From Bugula neritina (taxonomy: Eukaryota; Bryozoa; Gymnolaemata; Cheilostomatida; Bugulidae): a DNA stretch of 60,000 nucleotides. Below are positions 1,835 to 58,147 of the stretch, piece by piece. The DNA lies in contig OZ037770.1 of the NCBI GenBank assembly GCA_964035545.1, forward strand, positions 3,703,662-3,763,661, in the 5' to 3' direction. The notes under the pieces were generated by a model that made no database searches, was not told the origin of the DNA, and was given only the letters and a program-made list of their open reading frames with translations. The position numbers were made by a program, and so were the translations under genes. Within the stretch, counting starts at the first letter, position 1; every line of letters starts with the position of its first letter.

Positions 1835-1988
1835 GTATTGTGATAAACTTGTGGGTTGAATGTAACTTAGTGCAGAACAAGATAGGTTGAAGTAGTAGAG
1901 TTCCAAATGTTTATTATAGTATAAAAATAATGTCAACTTGTCTAGGCGAGCTCCAGTAGTAGACTGGCTTAACACCGTAACTCGCCTG

Positions 1989-1998
1989 CTTTTATATA
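1989..1998 (-). promoter_or_regulatory. LTR TATA box
   Basis: The minus strand reads TATATAAAAG. It lies downstream of the dyad array and about 75 bp upstream of an AATAAA signal (1910-1915), the usual U3-R arrangement. The equivalent site in the 5' LTR is about 9430-9439. Confidence 0.7.
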
Positions 1999-2044
1999 CA
2001 GCGAACAAAAGAACATAAAACAAAGAATCTTTTGTGTGTGTGGC

Positions 2045-2134
2045 CCGAAGTTCGGTAGCTCCGAAATTCGGCAGGCCCGAAGATCGGGGGAACCGATCTT
2101 CGGTCAAGCCGAAACTCGGAACTCCGAATTTCGG
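2045..2134. promoter_or_regulatory. Array of six 11-bp dyads in LTR U3
   Basis: Six near-palindromes start at 2045, 2061, 2077, 2093, 2109 and 2124: CCGAAGTTCGG, CCGAAATTCGG, CCGAAGATCGG, CCGATCTTCGG, CCGAAACTCGG, CCGAATTTCGG. Spacing is 16,16,16,16,15 bp, roughly one and a half helical turns. The outer CCGA and TCGG half-sites are invariant and only the centre varies. The array sits about 47 bp upstream of the TATA box in the sense direction, where an upstream activating sequence would lie. The second LTR copy carries it at 9486-9575. A role as a protein-binding array is inferred. Confidence 0.8.
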
Positions 2135-2187
2135 ACCCCAATTAACATTATTGAACAAAAGAACAAACCAAGGCATAATCTATCACA

Positions 2188-2220
2188 CACACCCCCTATC
2201 GGAAAGCATGCTTTCCGATA
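2188..2220 (-). other. Polypurine tract and 24-bp perfect palindrome next to the 3' LTR
   Basis: On the sense strand the bases abutting the 3' LTR read ATAGGGGGTG, a short purine tract suited to plus-strand priming. Directly upstream, partly overlapping, 2197-2220 is a perfect 24-bp palindrome centred on GCATGC with TATCGGAAA arms. Confidence 0.7.
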
Positions 2221-2396
2221 CGAGGGCGAATAATAACATAATAACAATGAGACAGACAATAAACAAAACAAAAAAAAGAAACAGAAGAGAGAGAACAAAG
2301 AAACAAAACAAAACAAAACACCAAGTACATAGTATAAGGGACAACGAATATGTATAACAGAGAATTGTCATGCCACCAGTCAGGGAGAGGGGGGTC
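2221..2396. other. A-rich untranslated segment between ORF3 and 3' LTR
   Basis: Low-complexity A-rich (plus strand) DNA without a reading frame. It separates the ORF3 stop at 2397 from the purine tract and is presumably 3' untranslated retroelement sequence. Confidence 0.5.
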
Positions 2397-3788
2397 TCAC
2401 TCCCTCCATGTCCCATCGTCGTTGTCGGTCTGACGTCGTTCCAGCCGGATCAGTCGTCGTCGCAATTGTGTCAGATCTTCCTCACACCGTGCCACGCGGC
2501 GCCGTAAGTGGCGCACCTCCTCTTCTAGTTGCGGTCGGGAGCGGAGTGTGTTGCGCTCCGGGTGTTGTCTGTGCTCTGGGTGGTGTCTGCTTGCCGCCGA
2601 GGAGCGGGGGTCCAGGTCCGATGTACCGGGTCTGGCACCATCCCCGACCCTTGTCAGCATGACCCGAAGAGGCTGGGTGGCTGCTGGTTGGAGGGCGGCG
2701 GCGGGTTCTCCGTCTTCTTCTTGAATTGCTCTGCACGCCGGAAACCCTTGGCCGAGGGTGGCACGCTTGTGGGGGTCCGCGACGTGCGGCAGGATGAGGT
2801 CCCGGAACTCCGGAAATGTGGCCTGATCCACGGTGAACACGTGACCTGGGTGGCAGCGCGAGATGCGCTGGTGGCGCAGCACATAATCCCGCTGGTAGGA
2901 GTATTCGCCGCAAGGGCAGAATACGTTGATGAAATGTTGTGGGGCGTGAACACGCAACCGCCGGGAGGAGGAGAATTTCCTCCGACATTGCCGGCAGATG
3001 CGGTTGCCCGCTGCCCCGCATGCTTCACTAATCTTCTGATTAGTGTCGCGAGAGACCCAGGACTGGCGGGCGACCAGTGCCTGGGGTAGAGCCAAGGTGG
3101 GGGTGTCACCGTCTTCAGCTCGAGTAGAGGAGGGCACACCGCATAGTATTCCCTGTTCCTCCCCGGCGGCTAATTGTAGCTCAACTGGGTTGGCGACAGG
3201 GTCACTATTCATGGTGGATAGCACCTCAGTTCGGTCTGTGGCGACCCGCGGGCTGCAAGGAGCCGTCACGGGGGCTGGTGGAGGGGGGGAGTCGACTCGA
3301 CTGACCTCCACCTCATCACACTCCATTGCAGTGTCTACAATAGACAGCAGAGGCCGAGTAAGGCCGGTCTCGCCGTCGCCGAAATTCGGCATCGCCTTAT
3401 AGGGTACTTTGTGGGTGGTAGGGAGCCGAGGTGAGTCATGGAGAGTGACTGACCCTATGTCCTGGTCTAATAAAAACTCATTTAGAGAGTCTTCTCCAAA
3501 ACTCACATCGACTTCCTCCGTTAATAAATTAGATTCTAACAAATCTAAACTAGCCCAATTAATTACAGTTGAGTCAGACTCCGGTACGGGAGGCTCTGAC
3601 TCTAATGAAATACCTGTGTTTGTAGTGTTGTTACCGGGAAGAGTAATACCCATATCCAATTCGTGATTAATTCGATTACAAGTTTCAGCTTTAAAATTGC
3701 GTGTTACTAGTGGGTTAGTAGTAGTGCAAATGGCCGAGCCTCGTGTTTCAATATTTTTACCTGCTACGCGATCGTGGGGAATTCCCAT
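2397..3788 (-). CDS. ORF3: C2H2 zinc-finger, leucine-zipper protein of the LTR element
   Basis: The first ATG is at 3788, giving 463 residues; an upstream in-frame TTG at 3815 would add 9. With the TTG-based count (472): residues 88-128 are acidic and hydrophobic (DLLESNLL, LNEFLLDQD), like an activation domain. A Pro/Ser-rich linker follows. A classical finger uses C274, C277, H290, H294. A variant finger follows at C300, C302, H315, H322. The segment 430-462 has L/V/C at perfect 4-3 heptad spacing (430, 434, 437, 441, 444, 448, 451, 455, 458), a leucine zipper. No signal peptide or membrane segment is seen, so this is not an envelope. It follows pol after 104 bp, in a different frame. A dyad identical to the U3 site type lies 39 bp upstream of the ATG. 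Function as a self-encoded dimeric transcription factor is inferred. Confidence 0.8.
   Translation of the reverse strand: MGIPHDRVAGKNIETRGSAICTTTNPLVTRNFKAETCNRINHELDMGITLPGNNTTNTGISLESEPPVPESDSTVINWASLDLLESNLLTEEVDVSFGEDSLNEFLLDQDIGSVTLHDSPRLPTTHKVPYKAMPNFGDGETGLTRPLLSIVDTAMECDEVEVSRVDSPPPPAPVTAPCSPRVATDRTEVLSTMNSDPVANPVELQLAAGEEQGILCGVPSSTRAEDGDTPTLALPQALVARQSWVSRDTNQKISEACGAAGNRICRQCRRKFSSSRRLRVHAPQHFINVFCPCGEYSYQRDYVLRHQRISRCHPGHVFTVDQATFPEFRDLILPHVADPHKRATLGQGFPACRAIQEEDGEPAAALQPAATQPLRVMLTRVGDGARPGTSDLDPRSSAASRHHPEHRQHPERNTLRSRPQLEEEVRHLRRRVARCEEDLTQLRRRLIRLERRQTDNDDGTWRE
3379..3389. promoter_or_regulatory. Internal dyad within ORF3
   Basis: CCGAAATTCGG, a perfect 11-bp dyad identical to the second U3 site (2061-2071), lies inside the ORF3 coding sequence. 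It may be a coding coincidence or an internal binding site. Confidence 0.4.
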
Positions 3789-3826
3789 CGAGTTTTGAAG
3801 GGACAACTCAGACAATCGCGTGCCCT

Positions 3827-3837
3827 CCGAATTTCGG
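3827..3837. promoter_or_regulatory. Dyad between pol and ORF3
   Basis: CCGAATTTCGG, identical to the sixth U3 site, lies in the 104-bp gap between the pol stop (3893) and the ORF3 ATG (3788). The position suits a site controlling an ORF3-specific transcript, but no TATA box was recognised beside it. Confidence 0.45.
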
Positions 3838-3892
3838 TTTGCAACTGTTCCTTTTTGTAGTGATTCTCCAGGAGGTTGGAAGAATTTACTAA

Positions 3893-6800
3893 CTAAGGAG
3901 GAGTAATGGCCCTGGACAGATGGATTCCCACTTGGGGGGGGGGCAACCCTAGGTGTCCTATGTGATAGTCTGCCAGATATCTGGGTGGTTTCCTCGCTCG
4001 CTGGCTCCTTTCCAGCGGTGTGGGTGCTGGTGGTGCCAGTTGCTCCTCAGTTGCCACCGTAGGGGGGTCCCCGCCTTCACCCGTAATACGGGTGGGGGTG
4101 TCCTCCCCCCAGAGGGGTGGTGGCTCTGGGGCGTGTTGCTGCTGCTGCTCCTGCCTCTGTTGTTGTTCCAACTGTTCTCGTAGGGCAGCCTGCTCCTGCT
4201 CTGCCTCCCTTCGGATGACAATTTCCACCTCCCGGGGCCGGGTGGCTCTCCCCCGCTGGTTAGGCTGGCGGTTGGGCTCCAGGAGGGGTGGAGCCTGACC
4301 CACCGCGTCTGGGCTGGCATGGTATGGTTTCAGGCGCTGTTCGCTCTGGACTGAGACCTGTCCAGAGCGCTCCACACGGTATGTGTGGTTGGCCAGCACC
4401 TCCACCACGCAGTAGGGACCCACGAACTTGGGCTGAAGTTTAGCCGACTGTCCGCGTCGCCTACGATAGCTCACCATCCAGACCCAGTCTCCCACCTGAT
4501 ACAATGGGGGCTCTTCTGAGTCCTCTGTGCGGATCTGCCACTGCTGGGCCCGCAGTGCATCATGGGCTTTACCCATGATCTCTGTCAGTCTTTCGACGTA
4601 CTCATGTACCGGCGATTCGGGGGCGGGAACGTGGTATGTCAGGTGTTCCGGAACCCGCGTTTCCCGGCCTAGCATCAGGAAGTTTGGGGTCTCCTGTGTG
4701 GTGGAGTGTGGTGTGCTGCGGTAAGCCCGCATGATTTGTGGCAGCACCACGTCCCATTCTTCCTGACCTCGACCAAGGAGCAGGCTCCTGAGGGCGTCAC
4801 CCAACATCCTGTTGTTCCGCTCGACGACTCCGTTCCCTTGTGGGTGATATGGGGTGGTCCGACTCTGGTTCACCCCCCATATCCGGCAGAGGTCTCCCAT
4901 GAGCTGGGACTGGAACTGGGCGCCCTGGTCCGTATGTATCTGCTCGGGCAAACCGAGGTAACAGAACACATGTTGGTCCAGGGTCCGGGCCACCGTGGGG
5001 GCAGTTGCGTCTGGGATAGCCAGAGCATCCGCCCACCGGGTAAAGTGGTCCGTGAGCACCAGTATCCAGGTGTTCCCTCTGGCGGATAACGGCATAGGCC
5101 CGACAAGGTCTACCGCCACTACTTGCCACGGTCGACCAGCGTACAGCCGGCGTCGACCAGTGGTTTCCGTGGGGCGGCCATGCTTGCTAGCTTGGCAGAC
5201 CTCGCATTGCCGTACCCGCAGTCGTACGTCCCGAGTCATTCCGGGCCAATACCAACGCAGCCGCAGACACCTGATGACCCGACTGACTCCAGAATGAGCC
5301 TGCTTATGGGTGTCCCAGATCAGTTCCCGTCGGAGGGCGCGTGGACAGACGACGCGGTCCCTCTCCTGCTGACGGTTGTCTGCTGCTAACGTTATCATCA
5401 GGAGGCCATCAGGACTGACCTTGAGGGCATCCCAGCGACGACAGAGGAGTTGGAACTCAACGTCTCCCTGCCGCTGCTGTTCCTCGCTAGGTCGTCGGCC
5501 CTCCTTCTTGGCCCGGAAAATGTCCGCTACCGGGCCGGGTAGCGTCTCCTGGAGTCGGCACAGCTCCTTGACATTCTGGTACAGAGTGGGGTTGGCGTGA
5601 AGCGCCTGGACGTCGTCTGAGTGGGTTTCGGTCCGAAGATGGCCGTGCTCCCACCGATAGACGGCGCCCTCCCCTAACTCTGTTTCCACGTCAAGGCGAG
5701 CGGGTCCCCCGTCCCGTTTTTCAATGTGCAGGCATTGCTTACAGTCTTCTACCGGCCGGCGGCTCATGCCGTCGGCGTTTCCGTGCTTCCGGCCAGCACG
5801 GTGTTCTATCCGGTAAGAGAACTCGGCAAGAATCTCTAGCCAACGAGCTACCTGGCTCGAGGGCTCCGCACGTTTACACAGCCATATCAGTGATGCATGG
5901 TCTGTTCGCAAACGGAACGTTCTCCCATACAGATATGGCCGAAAGTGCTTGACCGCCTTGACTACTGCTAGGAGTTCCTTCCTAGTGGTGCAGTAGTTCT
6001 TCTCGGCGGCCGCGAGAGTCTTGCTGTAGTAAGCCACGACCACCTCACTTCCACCCTGGACTTGAGACAGGACAGCTCCCACGCTGTGGTCACTGGCGTC
6101 GGTGTCCAGGATGTACTCCTTGGCTGGATCAGTATACGCCAGAATTGGCGCCTCCATTAGCCGTTGCTTGAGGTGGTCGAATGCCTGCTGCTCCTCCTGC
6201 GTCCACTGCCACCGGACCCCTTTTGCGGTCAGCCGATTTAACGGCTGAGCCACTCCTGCGAAGCCAGGTATGTACTGCCGGTAGTACCCTACTAGGCCCA
6301 AGAATGCGCGCAACTCAGGGAGGTCACGGGGGACAGTCCACTGCTTCACAGCCTGTACCTTCTCTGGGTCGGTAGCGACCCCATCACGGCCCACCACATG
6401 GCCCAGGTACGTGACTTCCGGCTGCAAGAGTGCACACTTGGAGGGCTTCAGCTTGAGTCCAGCTGCCCGGAGGCGGTCAAAGACCTCCCGCAGACGACTG
6501 ACATGAGTCGAAAAGTCTGGCGAGATGACAATGACGTCGTCCAGATAGATGAGGAGGGTCTTCCAGTGTAATCCACTGAGGACCTGCTCCATGAGCCGTT
6601 GGAAAGTTGCCGGGGCGGACGTTAGTCCAAATGGCAGTACTTTCCACTTCCAGAGCCCGTCGCGAGTAATGAATGCTGCTTTGTCCTGGGCATCAGGACT
6701 GAGAGGCACTTGCCAGTACCCGCTAAGCAGATCCAAAGTACTGAAGTACTTGCTACCCGCGAGGGCATCCAGAGACTCATCTATCCGTGGGAGAGGGTAG

Positions 6801-7591
6801 GCGTCTTGGATGGTAACGCTGTTGAGTCTGCGGTAGTCCACACAGAACCTCCAGCTACCATCTTTCTTCTTGACCAGGACTACTGGAGAGCTCCACGCAC
6901 CGTGGGCAGGCTCAATCAGATCCCGGTCGAGAAGATCCTGTACCTGTCGGCTCACCTCCTTCTCCTTCTCCGGGCCTAGACGCCGGGTAGGCTGCCTGAT
7001 GGGAGTGGTGCCGGCTGCCAGGGGTATCTCGTGGGAGATGACCTTGGTCAGCCCCATGTCTCTATCTCCACGACTGAAGACATCACTGTACTCCGCAAGT
7101 AGTTGAGCCAGTACTTGGCGTTCAGTACTACTTGTACAGTTTCCACACGCCCCATCATACAGGTCAGCCATATGCTCCGGGACTGCTCCTCGTCTGGTGT
7201 GAGGGGGGTTCCCCTGGGTGTCGGCCACTGTCTCCAGTGCCGGACCCACATCCGCTTCCTGGATGGAGTGGTACTTCCCCACCAGCGCTCCAGCCGATAA
7301 TCGGACAGGTTCCGTGAAGGGGTTGATGCACTGCACGAGGAGCTCCTGCCGACAATCTAGCCGATTCAGGCTGTTTGCTAGTCGGATCGCTCCGTGCGTT
7401 CCCTCAACCACCCCAGGCCGGCGATCCCCTTGCAGTTGACTCTGCAGCGAAGAGTCGCCTGGGATCTTCCCGGAACCGTGCAGTCCCGCACTACCTGGAC
7501 TCCGCCCACCAAGGGCCTTCCGAACTTGTCGACGCAGACAAGCTCCTTCCCAGCCATCACCACCACTGACTTCTGGAAATCCATGTGACAC
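3893..7591 (-). CDS. pol: Pol: reverse transcriptase, RNase H and integrase
   Basis: The open frame has 1232 codons. Real Pol similarity starts near 7411 (residue about 60), and the first 60 residues are overlap with protease in another frame. RT: D287 in the STLDLLSGY block and the YLDDV box at 349-353. RNase H: DTD at 496-498, E539, D564. Integrase: zinc-binding H762, H766, C796, C799, then D828, D888 and E924, which is D,D-35-E spacing. A GPY module sits at 1058-1060. The tail (about 1120-1210) is Gln/Glu-rich and coiled-coil-like. All catalytic residues are present. The protein would replicate the element RNA and insert the copy. Expression must follow from the upstream frames, since no ATG start fits. 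Confidence 0.95.
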   Translation of the reverse strand: MSHGFPEVSGGDGWEGACLRRQVRKALGGRSPGSAGLHGSGKIPGDSSLQSQLQGDRRPGVVEGTHGAIRLANSLNRLDCRQELLVQCINPFTEPVRLSAGALVGKYHSIQEADVGPALETVADTQGNPPHTRRGAVPEHMADLYDGACGNCTSSTERQVLAQLLAEYSDVFSRGDRDMGLTKVISHEIPLAAGTTPIRQPTRRLGPEKEKEVSRQVQDLLDRDLIEPAHGAWSSPVVLVKKKDGSWRFCVDYRRLNSVTIQDAYPLPRIDESLDALAGSKYFSTLDLLSGYWQVPLSPDAQDKAAFITRDGLWKWKVLPFGLTSAPATFQRLMEQVLSGLHWKTLLIYLDDVIVISPDFSTHVSRLREVFDRLRAAGLKLKPSKCALLQPEVTYLGHVVGRDGVATDPEKVQAVKQWTVPRDLPELRAFLGLVGYYRQYIPGFAGVAQPLNRLTAKGVRWQWTQEEQQAFDHLKQRLMEAPILAYTDPAKEYILDTDASDHSVGAVLSQVQGGSEVVVAYYSKTLAAAEKNYCTTRKELLAVVKAVKHFRPYLYGRTFRLRTDHASLIWLCKRAEPSSQVARWLEILAEFSYRIEHRAGRKHGNADGMSRRPVEDCKQCLHIEKRDGGPARLDVETELGEGAVYRWEHGHLRTETHSDDVQALHANPTLYQNVKELCRLQETLPGPVADIFRAKKEGRRPSEEQQRQGDVEFQLLCRRWDALKVSPDGLLMITLAADNRQQERDRVVCPRALRRELIWDTHKQAHSGVSRVIRCLRLRWYWPGMTRDVRLRVRQCEVCQASKHGRPTETTGRRRLYAGRPWQVVAVDLVGPMPLSARGNTWILVLTDHFTRWADALAIPDATAPTVARTLDQHVFCYLGLPEQIHTDQGAQFQSQLMGDLCRIWGVNQSRTTPYHPQGNGVVERNNRMLGDALRSLLLGRGQEEWDVVLPQIMRAYRSTPHSTTQETPNFLMLGRETRVPEHLTYHVPAPESPVHEYVERLTEIMGKAHDALRAQQWQIRTEDSEEPPLYQVGDWVWMVSYRRRRGQSAKLQPKFVGPYCVVEVLANHTYRVERSGQVSVQSEQRLKPYHASPDAVGQAPPLLEPNRQPNQRGRATRPREVEIVIRREAEQEQAALREQLEQQQRQEQQQQHAPEPPPLWGEDTPTRITGEGGDPPTVATEEQLAPPAPTPLERSQRARKPPRYLADYHIGHLGLPPPQVGIHLSRAITPP

Positions 7592-8346
7592 TGGTGTTTC
7601 TCCAGAAACGGCATTCCCAGGATGGCGTCCTCCTTCAGCTGGCTGACTATGAACGTCTCGTGAATTGCTTGATCACGGACGCGTCCAGGTAGTGAAATGA
7701 CGCCGTAGAAAGGAATGCATGATCCGTCCGCCAACGTACCATGCGCACCTTCATACGGCTCGAGGCTCGCCCGCTCTCGTGCACCAAGAGTGTCAAAGAG
7801 ACGCCTACTCAGCAGGTTGGTAGTGCACCCAGTATCCAGTAGGAATGTGGCAGCTTTACCCGAAATCTTTCCGGGCAGAAAGTAGCTGCTTCCATACGGC
7901 TGGGCGCTCCTGGAGCGGTCAGTCTCTGGGGGAGACACAACTTGGGTCCGCACAGCGGGCCTCCTCTTTGTCTTAGAGACAACGGGGGTTTTCTGAGGTC
8001 GGGAGGGTAGCTTGGGGTACTCTTGCGAGTAAGCTGAATCCTCCTCCACAACCTCCTCGGGCAACCCCGCGAACCGGTTCTGGAGTGGCCAGGCCGGAGG
8101 ATCGGGTAGACCTTGCGGTCTCCGAGATCTCCGAGGTGCCTGCCATCCTGCTTCTTCTAGCTGCATCCGGGTCTCGAGTGACACGGCCGGAGGATCGGGT
8201 AGACCTTGCGGTCTCCGAGGTCTCCGTGGCCTCTGCCACTCGGTATCGGCAGACCCTGTGGAGGTCTCTTCTCCTCTTCGAGTCCTATCCCGGATGGGAT
8301 TGGCGTGAGGCCCACGGTTGGCGGAAGTTACCGTGAGCCTTGGGTG
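7378..8346 (-). CDS. Retroelement aspartic protease frame
   Basis: This frame is open from the slippery site at 8346-8352 down to a TAG at 7378 and is -1 relative to gag. The catalytic motif LLDTGC (DTG at residues 117-119 counted from a GTG at 8184) is followed by ILGMPFL about 70 residues later, the paired hydrophobic-Gly motif of retropepsins. The N-terminal linker is Pro/Arg-rich and carries a 93-bp direct repeat. After about codon 250 similarity moves to the pol frame while this frame ends in unrelated codons and TAG. Protease and RT are thus separated by a -1 discontinuity near the four-base G run at 7411-7414. Confidence 0.85.
   Translation of the reverse strand, partial: HPRLTVTSANRGPHANPIRDRTRRGEETSTGSADTEWQRPRRPRRPQGLPDPPAVSLETRMQLEEAGWQAPRRSRRPQGLPDPPAWPLQNRFAGLPEEVVEEDSAYSQEYPKLPSRPQKTPVVSKTKRRPAVRTQVVSPPETDRSRSAQPYGSSYFLPGKISGKAATFLLDTGCTTNLLSRRLFDTLGARERASLEPYEGAHGTLADGSCIPFYGVISLPGRVRDQAIHETFIVSQLKEDAILGMPFLEKHQCHMDFQKSVVVMAGKELVCVDKFGRPLVGGVQVVRDCTVPGRSQATLRCRVNCKGIAGLGWLRERTERSD
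8091..8235 (-). repeat. 93-bp-offset direct repeat in the gag-protease linker
   Basis: A segment beginning GGCCGGAGGATCGGG occurs at about 8092 and again at about 8185, with about 45 nearly identical bases including CTTGCGGTCTCCGAG. The offset of 93 bp is 31 codons, so the frame is kept. It duplicates a Pro/Arg-rich linker segment. Confidence 0.75.
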
Positions 8347-9233
8347 TTTAAAGGCCCTTGGCCTCTAGGGCAGTGCCTCCTCACATGCCCTTGCACCCCG
8401 CACCCCCAACAGGTTAGTAGAGATGGGCGGACAGGGTTGTCCCGTGAACGGGGAGCCCGCCTATCCGCCTGTTCGCTCTGCAACTTCGTCACTGTAGCCT
8501 GCAGGCCTTTCATCATGTCCATTAACATGGTGAGCTGCGTCTGCTCGAGTGATTTAGTTGCTGCGGCCGCTACTTGGGGTTTAGCAGGCAGGGCGGTCTC
8601 CTCATCGACCACCTGGCGGGCGGCGAATCTTGGTCCTTGAAGCTCTTCTACCTGGAAATAGGCTTTACCCGTTTCCAGAGCTTCGTCCAGGCTGCCCACC
8701 TTGCCAGCCATCCAATAGCGTTGGAGGTCAGGATGATTTATACTCCGGAAAAACGCGTTGTACACCAGGCGCTGTCTTTCCGTTCCGGTAGCCTGGCTGA
8801 AAGCAGCCTGGGCCAAGCGTTCCACCACGTTGGCGTGGTCCTCCAATGATGTCCTCCTGTCCCTTCTCAGGGCCTGTAGGCGGTCAGACGCCTCCTCTGA
8901 CGTCATGCCAAACCTGGCCCTTAGGGCACGTAAGATGTGTGCTTCATCGGGCCCCAGAGCGAAACTCTTGGCCCGGCCTGTCAAACAGGCCCGGAGTTGG
9001 AGGACGCGCACCGGCACTGGCCATTCAGCGATGGTGGCCACGTCCTGGAACTCCCGGATGAATTGCTCCACATCCCCATCACCTCCAAAAGTTGGGGGAC
9101 TGAGGCGGTACCTGTCACCAGGTGGCGCCTGCCCTGTCCCCTGCAACTTTCGGAGGGCTGTCACCAAAGCCTCCACAGTGAGGGTTGGTGTCGCGGCTGC
9201 TCCAGGGGTTGCCTCCTCACCCCCTGGAGCCAT
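8328..9233 (-). CDS. gag: Gag with zinc knuckle
   Basis: 301 residues from an ATG at 9233, shortly after the primer site, to TAA at 8328-8330. The central part has the retrotransposon-gag pattern (FGGDGDVEQFIREFQ, then a helical region with LRARFG and FFRSINHPDLQRYW). A C-terminal CCHC zinc knuckle, CWGCGVQGHVRRHC, at 275-288 would bind the packaged RNA. Gag would form the virus-like particle. It is intact and ends just after the frameshift heptamer. Confidence 0.92.
   Translation of the reverse strand: MAPGGEEATPGAAATPTLTVEALVTALRKLQGTGQAPPGDRYRLSPPTFGGDGDVEQFIREFQDVATIAEWPVPVRVLQLRACLTGRAKSFALGPDEAHILRALRARFGMTSEEASDRLQALRRDRRTSLEDHANVVERLAQAAFSQATGTERQRLVYNAFFRSINHPDLQRYWMAGKVGSLDEALETGKAYFQVEELQGPRFAARQVVDEETALPAKPQVAAAATKSLEQTQLTMLMDMMKGLQATVTKLQSEQADRRAPRSRDNPVRPSLLTCWGCGVQGHVRRHCPRGQGPLNTQGSR
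8346..8352 (-). promoter_or_regulatory. -1 ribosomal frameshift slippery site at the gag-protease junction
   Basis: The sense strand reads T TTA AAC in the gag frame, the canonical X XXY YYZ heptamer known from retroviruses and coronaviruses. It lies five codons before the gag stop, and the -1 frame is open into protease. The downstream stimulatory structure was not modelled. Confidence 0.8.
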
Positions 9234-9260
9234 CTTGTTCTTCTTACACTAGTATTCAGA

Positions 9261-9278
9261 ATCCCACCGCTGCCACCA
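9261..9278 (-). other. Primer binding site matching tRNA-Leu
   Basis: The plus strand reads ATCCCACCGCTGCCACCA, one base inside the 5' LTR. This equals the 3' end, including CCA, of animal cytosolic tRNA-Leu of the AAG/UAG type as I recall it. All 18 bases would pair with that tRNA. Confidence 0.85.
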
Positions 9279-9279
9279 A

Positions 9280-9628
9280 TGTGATAAACTTGTGGGTTGA
9301 ATGTAACTTAGTGCAGAACAAGATAGGTTGAAGTAGTAGAGTTCCAAATGTTTATTATAGTATAAAAATAATGTCAACTTGTCTAGGCGAGCTCCAGTAG
9401 TAGACTGGCTTAACACCGTAACTCGCCTGCTTTTATATACAGCGAACAAAAGAACATAAAACAAAGAATCTTTTGTGTGTGTGGCCCGAAGTTCGGTAGC
9501 TCCGAAATTCGGCAGGCCCGAAGATCGGGGGAACCGATCTTCGGTCAAGCCGAAACTCGGAACTCCGAATTTCGGACCCCAATTAACATTATTGAACAAA
9601 AGAACAAACCAAGGCATAATCTATCACA
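9280..9628 (-). repeat. 5' LTR of the gypsy-type element
   Basis: Same length, ends and internal sequence as the LTR at 1839-2187, offset by 7441 bp. This copy would drive transcription leftward. The dyad array is at 9486-9575 and the TATA box at about 9430-9439. GTAT follows immediately at 9629. Confidence 0.95.
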
Positions 9629-10400: not shown

Positions 10401-13400
10401 TTAGGACAGAGGTTTCCAATTATTAGTATGTGAAACCAAAGGGGAATGGATAACTACTATTAGTATTATTACATTTACTTTATATTTAGTTTTACCAGTT
10501 CGTATTATGATTATCTTACTTTGAATTGTAAAGTATAATAATTATAATATTCATAGTAGTATATTTATATTAGTAATTAATATGTATATTAGTAAAAACA
10601 TTTGTTTTAAGTTGCTTGTTTATTAAATTATTCTAAATCCTAATAACGATAATCTTAATATTAGTGATAATCATTATGCTCATCACTGTCCCCAAGTGCT
10701 ATCAGTATGACCATCGCAATGTGAACCTAGACGTGAATGTAAAAAGGCACTGCAAAACAGAACATGGGATGGAGGCAGATATCCATACCACAATACAAAT
10801 ATCGATATTGAATTTGATAATCATAATTATTATACAAATATAATGATAATAACTACAATGATCAAAAATAAATAATACCAAAGAGTTTTCGAATTACTAT
10901 TCATAAAATCAAATATCACATTTATAAAGATATAATCATATATATTATTAAATTTAAGTCAATTATACTAATAGCAATAGTAATATAAATAGAAAAAAGA
11001 ATCATTGACCAGGAGTAGGTGCAAAATAAAAGTCAATTTTAAGACAAAGAGTAAGAAAAATACTAAATCGATACTTAAAATTACTTATTTTTAATCTTAG
11101 TCACTTACAGTCAGTCTTAGTTTAATTTTTACTACTAAGTCTTTAATTTTAAGTTCATTTTGACAATAAACTTGAAGACTTTAACTAAGAATATGTATAA
11201 TTCAAAATTCCAAACTGGTACAAGTAAAAGTTGCTACTGAAGCTTTGTAATATTATTTTAAATTATTGGTATGATAGCATTATATTTTGATTCATAGCAA
11301 TACTGATAGTGACAATTTCAAACATACCCATACCATTACTGTTACAGTTTAAGTTACTATTGCCATTGTGATTGCCGGTAATGAGTAAATATAACTTAAA
11401 TTTATATGACTATTACTATTAGTATTACTATTAGTACTACTATCACTTTCAGTACCGGTCTAGTATCAGTATCACCTTAATTCAAAATCAATGTATAATT
11501 TATCAAATTACTTTTATATTATCATTTATCAATAATATGTCTATCACTATGATATTATCATGATATTGATTTTTAATTTAAACATAATAAAATCATAGGT
11601 ATAATCATAATGATAATCATAATCATAATGCCTAATTTTACTTTTAGTTCAGGTTCAATGATTTAAGAGTAAGTGAAAGTTACTATAACTATTGCCATTG
11701 TGATTGCTAGAAATAAGTAAATATAATTTAAATTTATATGACTATTATTATTACCAACACTCAGACTTACTCGGACTCACTCTGTCTCTAACTCTAAGAG
11801 TAAGTCTGAGTCTCACTCCACCAGAGTGAGAGTGACACTGAATTACTATAACTATTACTATAACTATTAGTATTACTATTAGTATTAGTATTAGCAAAAT
11901 ATATCAACCTTATGATTATCTTATTAGTTATTACAATATGTTCGGCATTGATGTTGAACTAAAAATATTAATAGTTATTACAATCACAATGACAATGCCA
12001 ATATGATCAAAGACAAATGATTCCAAGCAGTTTCAGTTTGAGTTTGAGTTGAAGGTAAGTTATAAGTTGAAGTAGTACGTAAGTGGTAGTTGATACTGAT
12101 ACTATCAGTGATAGGTCTATACTCCATACCGATGAACTCAATAATATTACCTATATATTACCATAAATTATATTACTATTAGTATTACCTATAATTAAAA
12201 TATATTCTTTCTTTTCCAGCTCAGTGCTTCATACCCTCTACTTAGTCTAATGCCGCGCACATGACGAGAATGTGAGGTGAAGGTCACTCACAGCTAAAAT
12301 CGCCAAGGATCTGCAATCCATCACTAGTAGTAGTAGTTCTAGTAGTCGTACTACCAGTAATCTGGCTTCGCTATGACACTACGAATTGAATGTTGACAAG
12401 ACGCATGCATGTTTGCTGTTGGTAAACTAATTTTTACTGAATTTTAATCATGCTAAGCTGCAACCTATTTTCTAATGAAATAATATATATAATAAATATA
12501 ATATAATAAATATAATAATTATCATTATGATTATCATTATAATATTTTATCATTTAATTTTATAACTTTTACTTTTAGTTTTAGTATTTTGGTTTTACAT
12601 CAAAATTTACATCATTATGATTATCATTATGATTACAAAATGAAAATAATTATCATTAATCATTACCTTTTAATTTATGATTATAATTAATGTTAGAATT
12701 ACCACAATTACAATCATAATGATAATGGCATAATGCCAATGATAATCACAATCGTAACACTAATAATAATAGTAATAGTCAAACTCAAGGATTGAGCCAA
12801 TGATTCAGATTGTCTAAATTTAATTAAATAAATTTCAGCCTTGGGTTTAACTTTACAGTTCACAAGTTTATTTTACATTACGACTGAGAGTCACAGTAAG
12901 ACTAAGAAAAAGAGTAAGTCATACCTTTCTTGCAGTTATTTTCAAAGTTTGTAGTTGTACTAGTACAGTAGTAGACCTAGTAGTAGTACTAGTAGTGGTA
13001 GTAGTAACAGTACTATTAGTAGTAGTAGTAGTAGTAGTACTAGTACTAGTAGCAGTACTAGTACTAGTTGTAGTACTAGTATCAGTGGTAGTAGTAATAG
13101 GACTGCGATCTTAGATGTAAGTCTAATGAAATACGAATAATAATAGTAGAAGTATAACTTTTACATATTTAGTTTTACTATAAGTGTAAATATAATGAGT
13201 AATAGTAAAACTCAAAGTATATACATTAACTCAGTTTAGCATTAATGATAAAATATAATAATTATAATAAAGTAATATGATCACCATTACGATTATAATT
13301 AAAATTCTTAGTAACACTTTTATGATACTCAGTTTAATTTATTAATATTAAACATTAGTTTGGCTACCACAAATAACTAATAAGTGCTACTATAGGTAAC

Positions 13401-51752: not shown

Positions 51753-58147
<6,395 letters not shown>

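Follow-up and report, generated by a model that had tools for sequence, protein, structure and literature searches.

Self-encoded DNA-binding activators are already known from foamy viruses. According to one account, the foamy-virus activator Tas (Bel1) directly binds both the long terminal repeat (LTR) and an internal promoter, in a feedback loop; the internal promoter is termed unique to foamy viruses, and the two promoters that Tas targets are little related in sequence (PMC7390438). Here we describe a stretch of 60,000 nucleotides from Bugula neritina (assembly GCA_964035545.1, contig OZ037770.1, positions 3,703,662 to 3,763,661; the whole stretch is called the window), in which a retrotransposon, assigned to the Ty3/gypsy type from its domain order and LTRs, occupies positions 1839-9628 on the minus strand and carries an additional open reading frame, ORF3. 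Judging from its sequence, this element probably encodes its own activator, ORF3, which would bind CCGA-N3-TCGG dyads in the LTR and at internal targets, a logic like that of Tas. The likeness would be that of an element with its own DNA-binding activator and with targets both in the unique 3' (U3) part of the LTR and internally; here the dyads lie in U3 and in the ORF3 region, as candidate targets of a putative activator. The present case differs from Tas in that the protein combines a finger pair with a zipper, the element is of the Ty3/gypsy type and one dyad motif is found in both places. The internal promoter, moreover, is here a candidate, suggested by sequence hints (TCGGCCATT at a near-constant distance and a dip in GC content).

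Maize Spm/En TnpA is an element-encoded protein that acts on subterminal repeat arrays of a DNA transposon; the element described here resembles it in having a protein that would act on repeat arrays, and differs in not being a DNA transposon. In an account of Arabidopsis VANDAL elements, VANC arrays evolve by tandem repeats and vary among related elements (PMC5735166). Here, too, an element-encoded protein is accompanied by motif arrays that differ between relatives, whereas VANDALs are DNA transposons and the VANC function described there is anti-silencing. An added coding region is likewise reported for orchid Ty3/gypsy elements with an N6-methyladenosine (m6A) demethylase domain (PMC9289625); in contrast, the product of the region added here is a putative DNA-binding regulator, for which the LTR has cognate-looking sites. 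No Ty3/gypsy element with its own zinc-finger regulator and operator array was among the matches listed from the open-licence PMC literature. The features that enter the argument, in window coordinates, are:

2045..2134, no strand: array of six exact CCGA-N3-TCGG dyads in U3
1989..1998, minus strand: TATA box, reading TATATAAAAG on the element strand; the last dyad lies 46 bp upstream of it (distance taken from copy L007)
2397..3653, minus strand: ORF3, from the ATG at 3653 to its stop, located downstream of the integrase
2850..2996, minus strand: two zinc-finger-like modules, Cx2Cx12Hx3H and CxCx12Hx5C (ligands conserved; predicted local distance difference test score, pLDDT, of the model 92.5)
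2427..2528, minus strand: C-terminal zipper, a/d heptads V,V,L,L and L,L,C,L,L (heptads and predicted helix)
3441..3566, minus strand: acidic hydrophobic segment of 42 amino acids, candidate activation domain (10 D/E, 0 K/R)
3827..3837, no strand: internal dyad A in coding sequence, conserved in lineages I-IV
3379..3389, no strand: internal dyad B in coding sequence (MPNFG codons), conserved in lineages I-IV
7294..7304, no strand: dyad in pol, an exact match in the window copy

A preliminary description of the window had reported six dyads with CCGA/TCGG arms in U3, recurring every 16 bp just upstream of the LTR TATA box. All six are exact and are repeated in the other LTR. They start at 2045, 2061, 2077, 2093, 2109 and 2124, in steps of 16, 16, 16, 16 and 15 bp, so that the period of 16 bp holds for the first four steps and not for the last. 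All 15 exact dyads of the window fall within the element and none outside it. The shuffle test and the TATA distance were run on the U3 of copy L007, which carries the identical six dyads and in which the array ends 46 bp before the TATA box, upstream of it as described. In 300 dinucleotide-preserving shuffles of this U3, dyads averaged 0.010 and never exceeded 1, against the six observed, and half-sites averaged 2.46 and never exceeded 6, against the 12 observed. Half-sites outside the element occur in the window at 0.92 per kb, with at most three per 200 bp, and each LTR has 12 per 200 bp; a GC-rich internal region of the element also reaches 8 per 200 bp. When all 256 tetramers were ranked, in seven U3s, by their occurrence as a tetramer followed by N3 and its reverse complement, CCGA came first (18, in six of the seven), the next reaching 3. 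Together, the shuffles and this ranking rule out a chance origin of the array. Across the 215.8 Mb of genome searched, CCGANNNTCGG was found 1372 times against 887 times for the backward-read pattern, a control that is not CpG-matched. A heat-shock element (GAA-TTC) was considered by eye and rejected, GAA and TTC being one base apart and not two.

In this genome ORF3 has at least 82 matches, a lower bound since 79 of 1136 candidates were scored; some copies give more than one row. Group I, which includes the window copy, is about 91-100% identical to ORF3, group II about 50-58% over long matches, group III about 42-45%, and L041 (lineage IV) 42% in the genome search and 37% in the locus comparison. 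One group I copy, L017, is a mosaic, its first part being about 61% and its second 90% identical to ORF3, which suggests recombination between groups.

Of 15 chosen loci, 12 were measured over the stretch from the polypurine tract to the TATA box; in L026, L022 and L040 no such tract was found, and these three were dropped. Half-sites numbered 11-12 per U3 in group I, 12-22 in group II, 11 in group III and 10 in lineage IV, with shuffle means of 1.7-4.4. Half-sites and exact N3 dyads were, respectively, 12 and 6 in L007 and 11 and 5 in L014 (both group I), 22 and 4 in L018, 17 and 2 in L023, 18 and 2 in L028 and in L024, 12 and 1 in L054, 10 and 1 in L041, and 11 and 0 in each of L035, L036, L037 and L039 (group III). 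The group III array is weak: it consists of half-sites only, and shuffles gave as many as 9-10. In all 12 U3s, 28-46 bp separate the last half-site from the TATA box downstream. Array layouts differ widely among related U3s. Half-sites fall on an 8-bp lattice in groups I and II and in locus L058, and their commonest distances in nine U3s were 15, 23 and 7 inward and 16, 24 and 8 outward; a strict 8-bp lattice across all lineages was rejected, since it fails in L039 and L041 and only partly holds in L001.

Locus L001 represents a fifth lineage, V, which was found by a two-dyad pattern alone and is absent from the matches of the ORF3 search. Its U3 contains six sites at spacings of 14-19 bp, of which three are exact and the others have one mismatch each. 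Beside these sites lies a frame of 286 amino acids that has CxxC...HxxxH and CxC...H...C and, in its C-terminal region, many leucine heptads, and a frame upstream of the U3 resembles an integrase by eye. In an hhalign comparison, the ORF3 profile matched the 286-residue protein with a probability of 99.3 over 117 columns at 36% identity, and by this sequence match the protein is homologous to ORF3. ORF3 and the array occur together in loci measured from five lineages. The preliminary description had held that relatives keeping ORF3 and lacking any array would speak against it; array and ORF3 are kept together in all 12 U3s measured and in lineage V, with the qualification that group III retains half-sites only, and no measured U3 combines ORF3 with a missing array. 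Downstream of ORF3, where the stretch was covered, no exact N3 dyad was found in 10 of 50 loci (L022, L035-L040, L049, L050 and L053); seven of these (L035-L040 and L053) are group III, and L022, L049 and L050 are candidate exceptions. The tendency of relatives to retain array and ORF3 together points to an element that may switch itself on.

The stop-to-stop frame of ORF3 spans 549 amino acids (2400-4046) and has a further ATG at 3788 besides that at 3653; the latter occupies the same alignment column in seven of ten copies, and the other three have an ATG 11 columns further on. The zinc fingers, heptad zipper and acidic region ascribed to ORF3 at the outset were all found, as the two modules with conserved ligands, the uninterrupted a/d heptads within the predicted C-terminal helix and the 42-residue segment free of K and R. 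Finger 1 fits the classical C2H2 spacing and finger 2 does not. The Pfam C2H2 gathering score was missed (zf-C2H2_4, 12.2 bits against a cut-off of 27), none of 54 Foldseek matches in pdb reached E<=0.001, and a sequence search of PDB gave none at E<=0.001, the best, at E 0.11, being a zinc-finger protein. In a structural second look, the finger-pair model bore a possible likeness to tandem finger-DNA complexes. A 234-residue model of ORF3 had a mean pLDDT of 44.9 and was poor outside the coiled coil; its predicted C-terminal helix, at residues 189-228, had a block pLDDT of 87-93 at the core and is a putative dimerisation zipper. An LLDQ(D/E)xG-like motif of the acidic segment reappears in ORF3 alignments. 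The ratio of nonsynonymous to synonymous substitution rates (dN/dS) was 0.07-0.19 for the fingers, 0.15-0.32 for the linker and zipper and, in six comparisons, 0.38-1.60 for the stretch after dyad A; fingers and zipper are under purifying selection, strong in the fingers, whereas the protein is weakly constrained after A. The protein family is broad, with 42 homologues to the window ORF3 profile and 94 to that of lineage V (source codes jgi, lgn and ena), so that the regulator logic may be widespread; some ORF3-like finger/zipper proteins in public sets (P0001-P0138), among them P0012, P0024, P0031 and P0032, have altered finger 2 helices. None of the 44 dyad-pattern matches in IMG/VR encodes ORF3.

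The initial account had the LTR array only, to which the exact coding dyads at 3827, 3379 and 7294 are now added. Dyads A and B were surveyed in 50 loci (L005-L054, many of them near-identical) and counted within 130 nt of their mapped place: of the 46 loci that cover its place, 43 have A, and 45 of all 50 have B. A ten-copy codon alignment was reduced to six lineages; of its 1599 nucleotide columns, 423 do not vary. Among 1589 alignment windows, only A and B have all eight arm positions invariant. Dyad A is lost in L040, which stands outside the six lineages. Resampling of synonymous codons, with each copy's own codon usage, gave P values per lineage of 0.003-0.016 for A and 0.04-0.10 for B, and log10 products of -12.1 and -7.0, respectively; these products assume independent lineages, which holds only roughly. 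Where lineages share residues, their codon identity is 0.39-0.71. With a 3-base spacer, CCGA tops the 256 tetramers in coding sequence (15, in six of six sequences; next 3); with spacers of 0-8, GGCT-N6, GGCA-N8 and CTCC-N6 also occur in six of six, at 10, 6 and 6 places. A conserved peptide was rejected as the cause of A, which encodes R-N-S, R-I-S or R-R-S, with N, I or R between the arms; for B, which encodes P-N-F-G, P-K-F-G or P-K-I-G, this explanation is weakened rather than excluded by the variation of N/K and F/I. Spreading of A and B by recombination is unlikely because flanking residues diverge between lineages. Dyads A and B are conserved at the DNA level in lineages I-IV, and dyads with identical arms occur in U3 and in protein-coding DNA alike. 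In lineage V, exact A and B dyads were not found within C1:89924-95200. In the related element L055, an exact dyad at C1:1914491 lies, by eye, at the same place as that at 7294-7304 of the window.

We infer that ORF3 binds the dyads as a dimer and activates, rather than represses or relieves silencing, and that A and B influence how ORF3 is expressed. ORF3 would dimerise through its C-terminal zipper, and the finger pair of each monomer would read one CCGA half-site, the dimer binding CCGA-N3-TCGG. On the U3 array, with its last half-site 28-46 bp before the TATA box, ORF3 could recruit the transcription machinery through the acidic segment and so drive full-length RNA, while dyads A and B would let it regulate its own production in a feedback loop. 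The proposal that the element carries its own transcription factor and operator is partly supported by the co-occurrence of array and ORF3; it needs amending in that ORF3 sometimes continues Pol and the candidate targets include coding dyads, and the action of ORF3 is a presumed one.

An alternative that we regard as unlikely is that ORF3 binds the dyads as an anti-silencing factor, an insulator or a copy-number repressor, the array being a loading platform with VANC-like logic. VANC proteins bind a short motif in arrays that vary among relatives, as here (PMC5735166), and the acidic segment is a candidate, not an established, activation domain, which weighs on the same side. However, the absence of basic residues from that segment counts against an anti-silencing or repressor role, and so does the distance of the last half-site from the TATA box in all 12 U3s, as promoter-proximal activators usually sit this short a distance upstream.

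Quite improbable is a second alternative, in which a host transcription factor reads the CCGA/TCGG array and ORF3 serves otherwise, for example in guiding integration or in particle assembly as a C-terminal extension of Pol. Three observations speak for it and against a self-encoded activator. First, the frame holding ORF3 measures 1,660-2,023 amino acids in 22 of the 82 matches, so that in these ORF3 is an extension of the Pol frame (in 4 of the 22 the match is interrupted by a stop; a row with a reported frame of 63,007 amino acids was excluded as implausible); in the window copy, protease, Pol and ORF3 are held in three different frames. Second, L057 and L058 keep the integrase and LTR half-site arrays and have a frame ending in another tail, which both share and which lacks fingers and zipper, a situation compatible with use of ORF3 in trans and also with a host factor reading the array. 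Third, the joint variation of dyads and fingers, proposed earlier as a check, is not telling: lineages I-IV show hardly any change in either finger residues or half-sites, and in lineage V the finger 2 helix is changed and the half-sites are kept, which does not separate ORF3 from a host factor. Against a host factor, ORF3 and array are found together in five lineages, one of them discovered from the motif alone. Moreover, A and B lie within the ORF3 region, and exact A and B are absent from the two finger-less elements, L057 and L058, in whose coding stretch, as read, no exact dyad was found. A reading of the dyads as structure elements of RNA or DNA (hairpins or dimer linkage), not as protein sites, is very improbable: every dyad is self-complementary and some group II arrays form nested palindromes by eye, but the arm sequence persists while the layout, and hence the possible pairing, changes, U3 lies outside the 5' leader, and a hairpin of four arm pairs around three bases would be weak, as four base pairs closing a three-base loop generally are.

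Returning to ORF3 as an activator of its own element, the sequence around dyad A contains a candidate for an internal promoter:

3729..3737, minus strand: TCGGCCATT, candidate internal start region; its distance to dyad A is 100-112 bp in seven copies examined

The counterpart of TCGGCCATT in L041 is TCAGCCATT, and GC content dips to 0.29-0.43 just beyond TCGGCCATT in seven copies; TCGGCCATT may resemble initiator or YY1-type starts. Possibly, though we put this forward only tentatively, ORF3 is expressed early from an internal promoter made up of dyad A, the AT-rich stretch, TCGGCCATT and the ATG at 3653, amplifies itself via A and B and then fires the U3 array, with the ORF3-less L057 and L058 riding in trans; this would be a foamy-virus-like two-promoter circuit, independently evolved in Ty3/gypsy. 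If so, this retrotransposon family would be less dependent on host factors for its expression and would run a feedback switch, and its ORF3-less relatives would be natural trans-dependent parasites. In the codon alignment, ACAGGTATTTC (element strand, 3607-3617) is nearly invariant across the six lineages and looks like a splice site. L057 (1-1987) and L058 (777-2399) have differing LTR types and a common C-terminal tail (APGSQIEE...ALPYREC).

The remaining parts of the element are:

1839..2187, minus strand: 3' LTR with the U3 dyad array, 349 bp, exactly matching 9280-9628
9280..9628, minus strand: 5' LTR, the identical copy, with its six dyads at 9486-9575
8328..9248, minus strand: gag frame, by position and a CCHC-like end (Pfam zf-CCHC under cut-off)
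7378..8364, minus strand: protease frame (Pfam Asp_protease_2)
3893..7672, minus strand: pol frame with reverse transcriptase, ribonuclease H and integrase (Pfam RVT_1, RT_RNaseH, Integrase_H2C2 and rve)

The element has TG...CA ends, and GTAT flanks both outer ends as a target duplication. Pfam domains and positions give the gene order of Ty3/gypsy elements (protease, reverse transcriptase, ribonuclease H, integrase), together with the paired LTRs and short target duplication of that type; the identity of the two 349-bp LTRs suggests a young insertion. A perfect 24-bp inverted repeat, TATCGGAAAGCATGCTTTCCGATA (2197-2220), adjoins the polypurine tract and is possibly a stem-loop; the group II and III copies read retain it in varied form, and in L041 both of its arms are changed in matching fashion. 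The protease frame contains an imperfect direct duplication of 72 bp (8074-8238, 86%). Outside the element, stretches of TAG/TAT-type trinucleotide repeats extend over 11340-13120, and an open frame of 605 amino acids at 51753-53570 resembles, by eye, a host leucine-rich-repeat plus GTPase protein.
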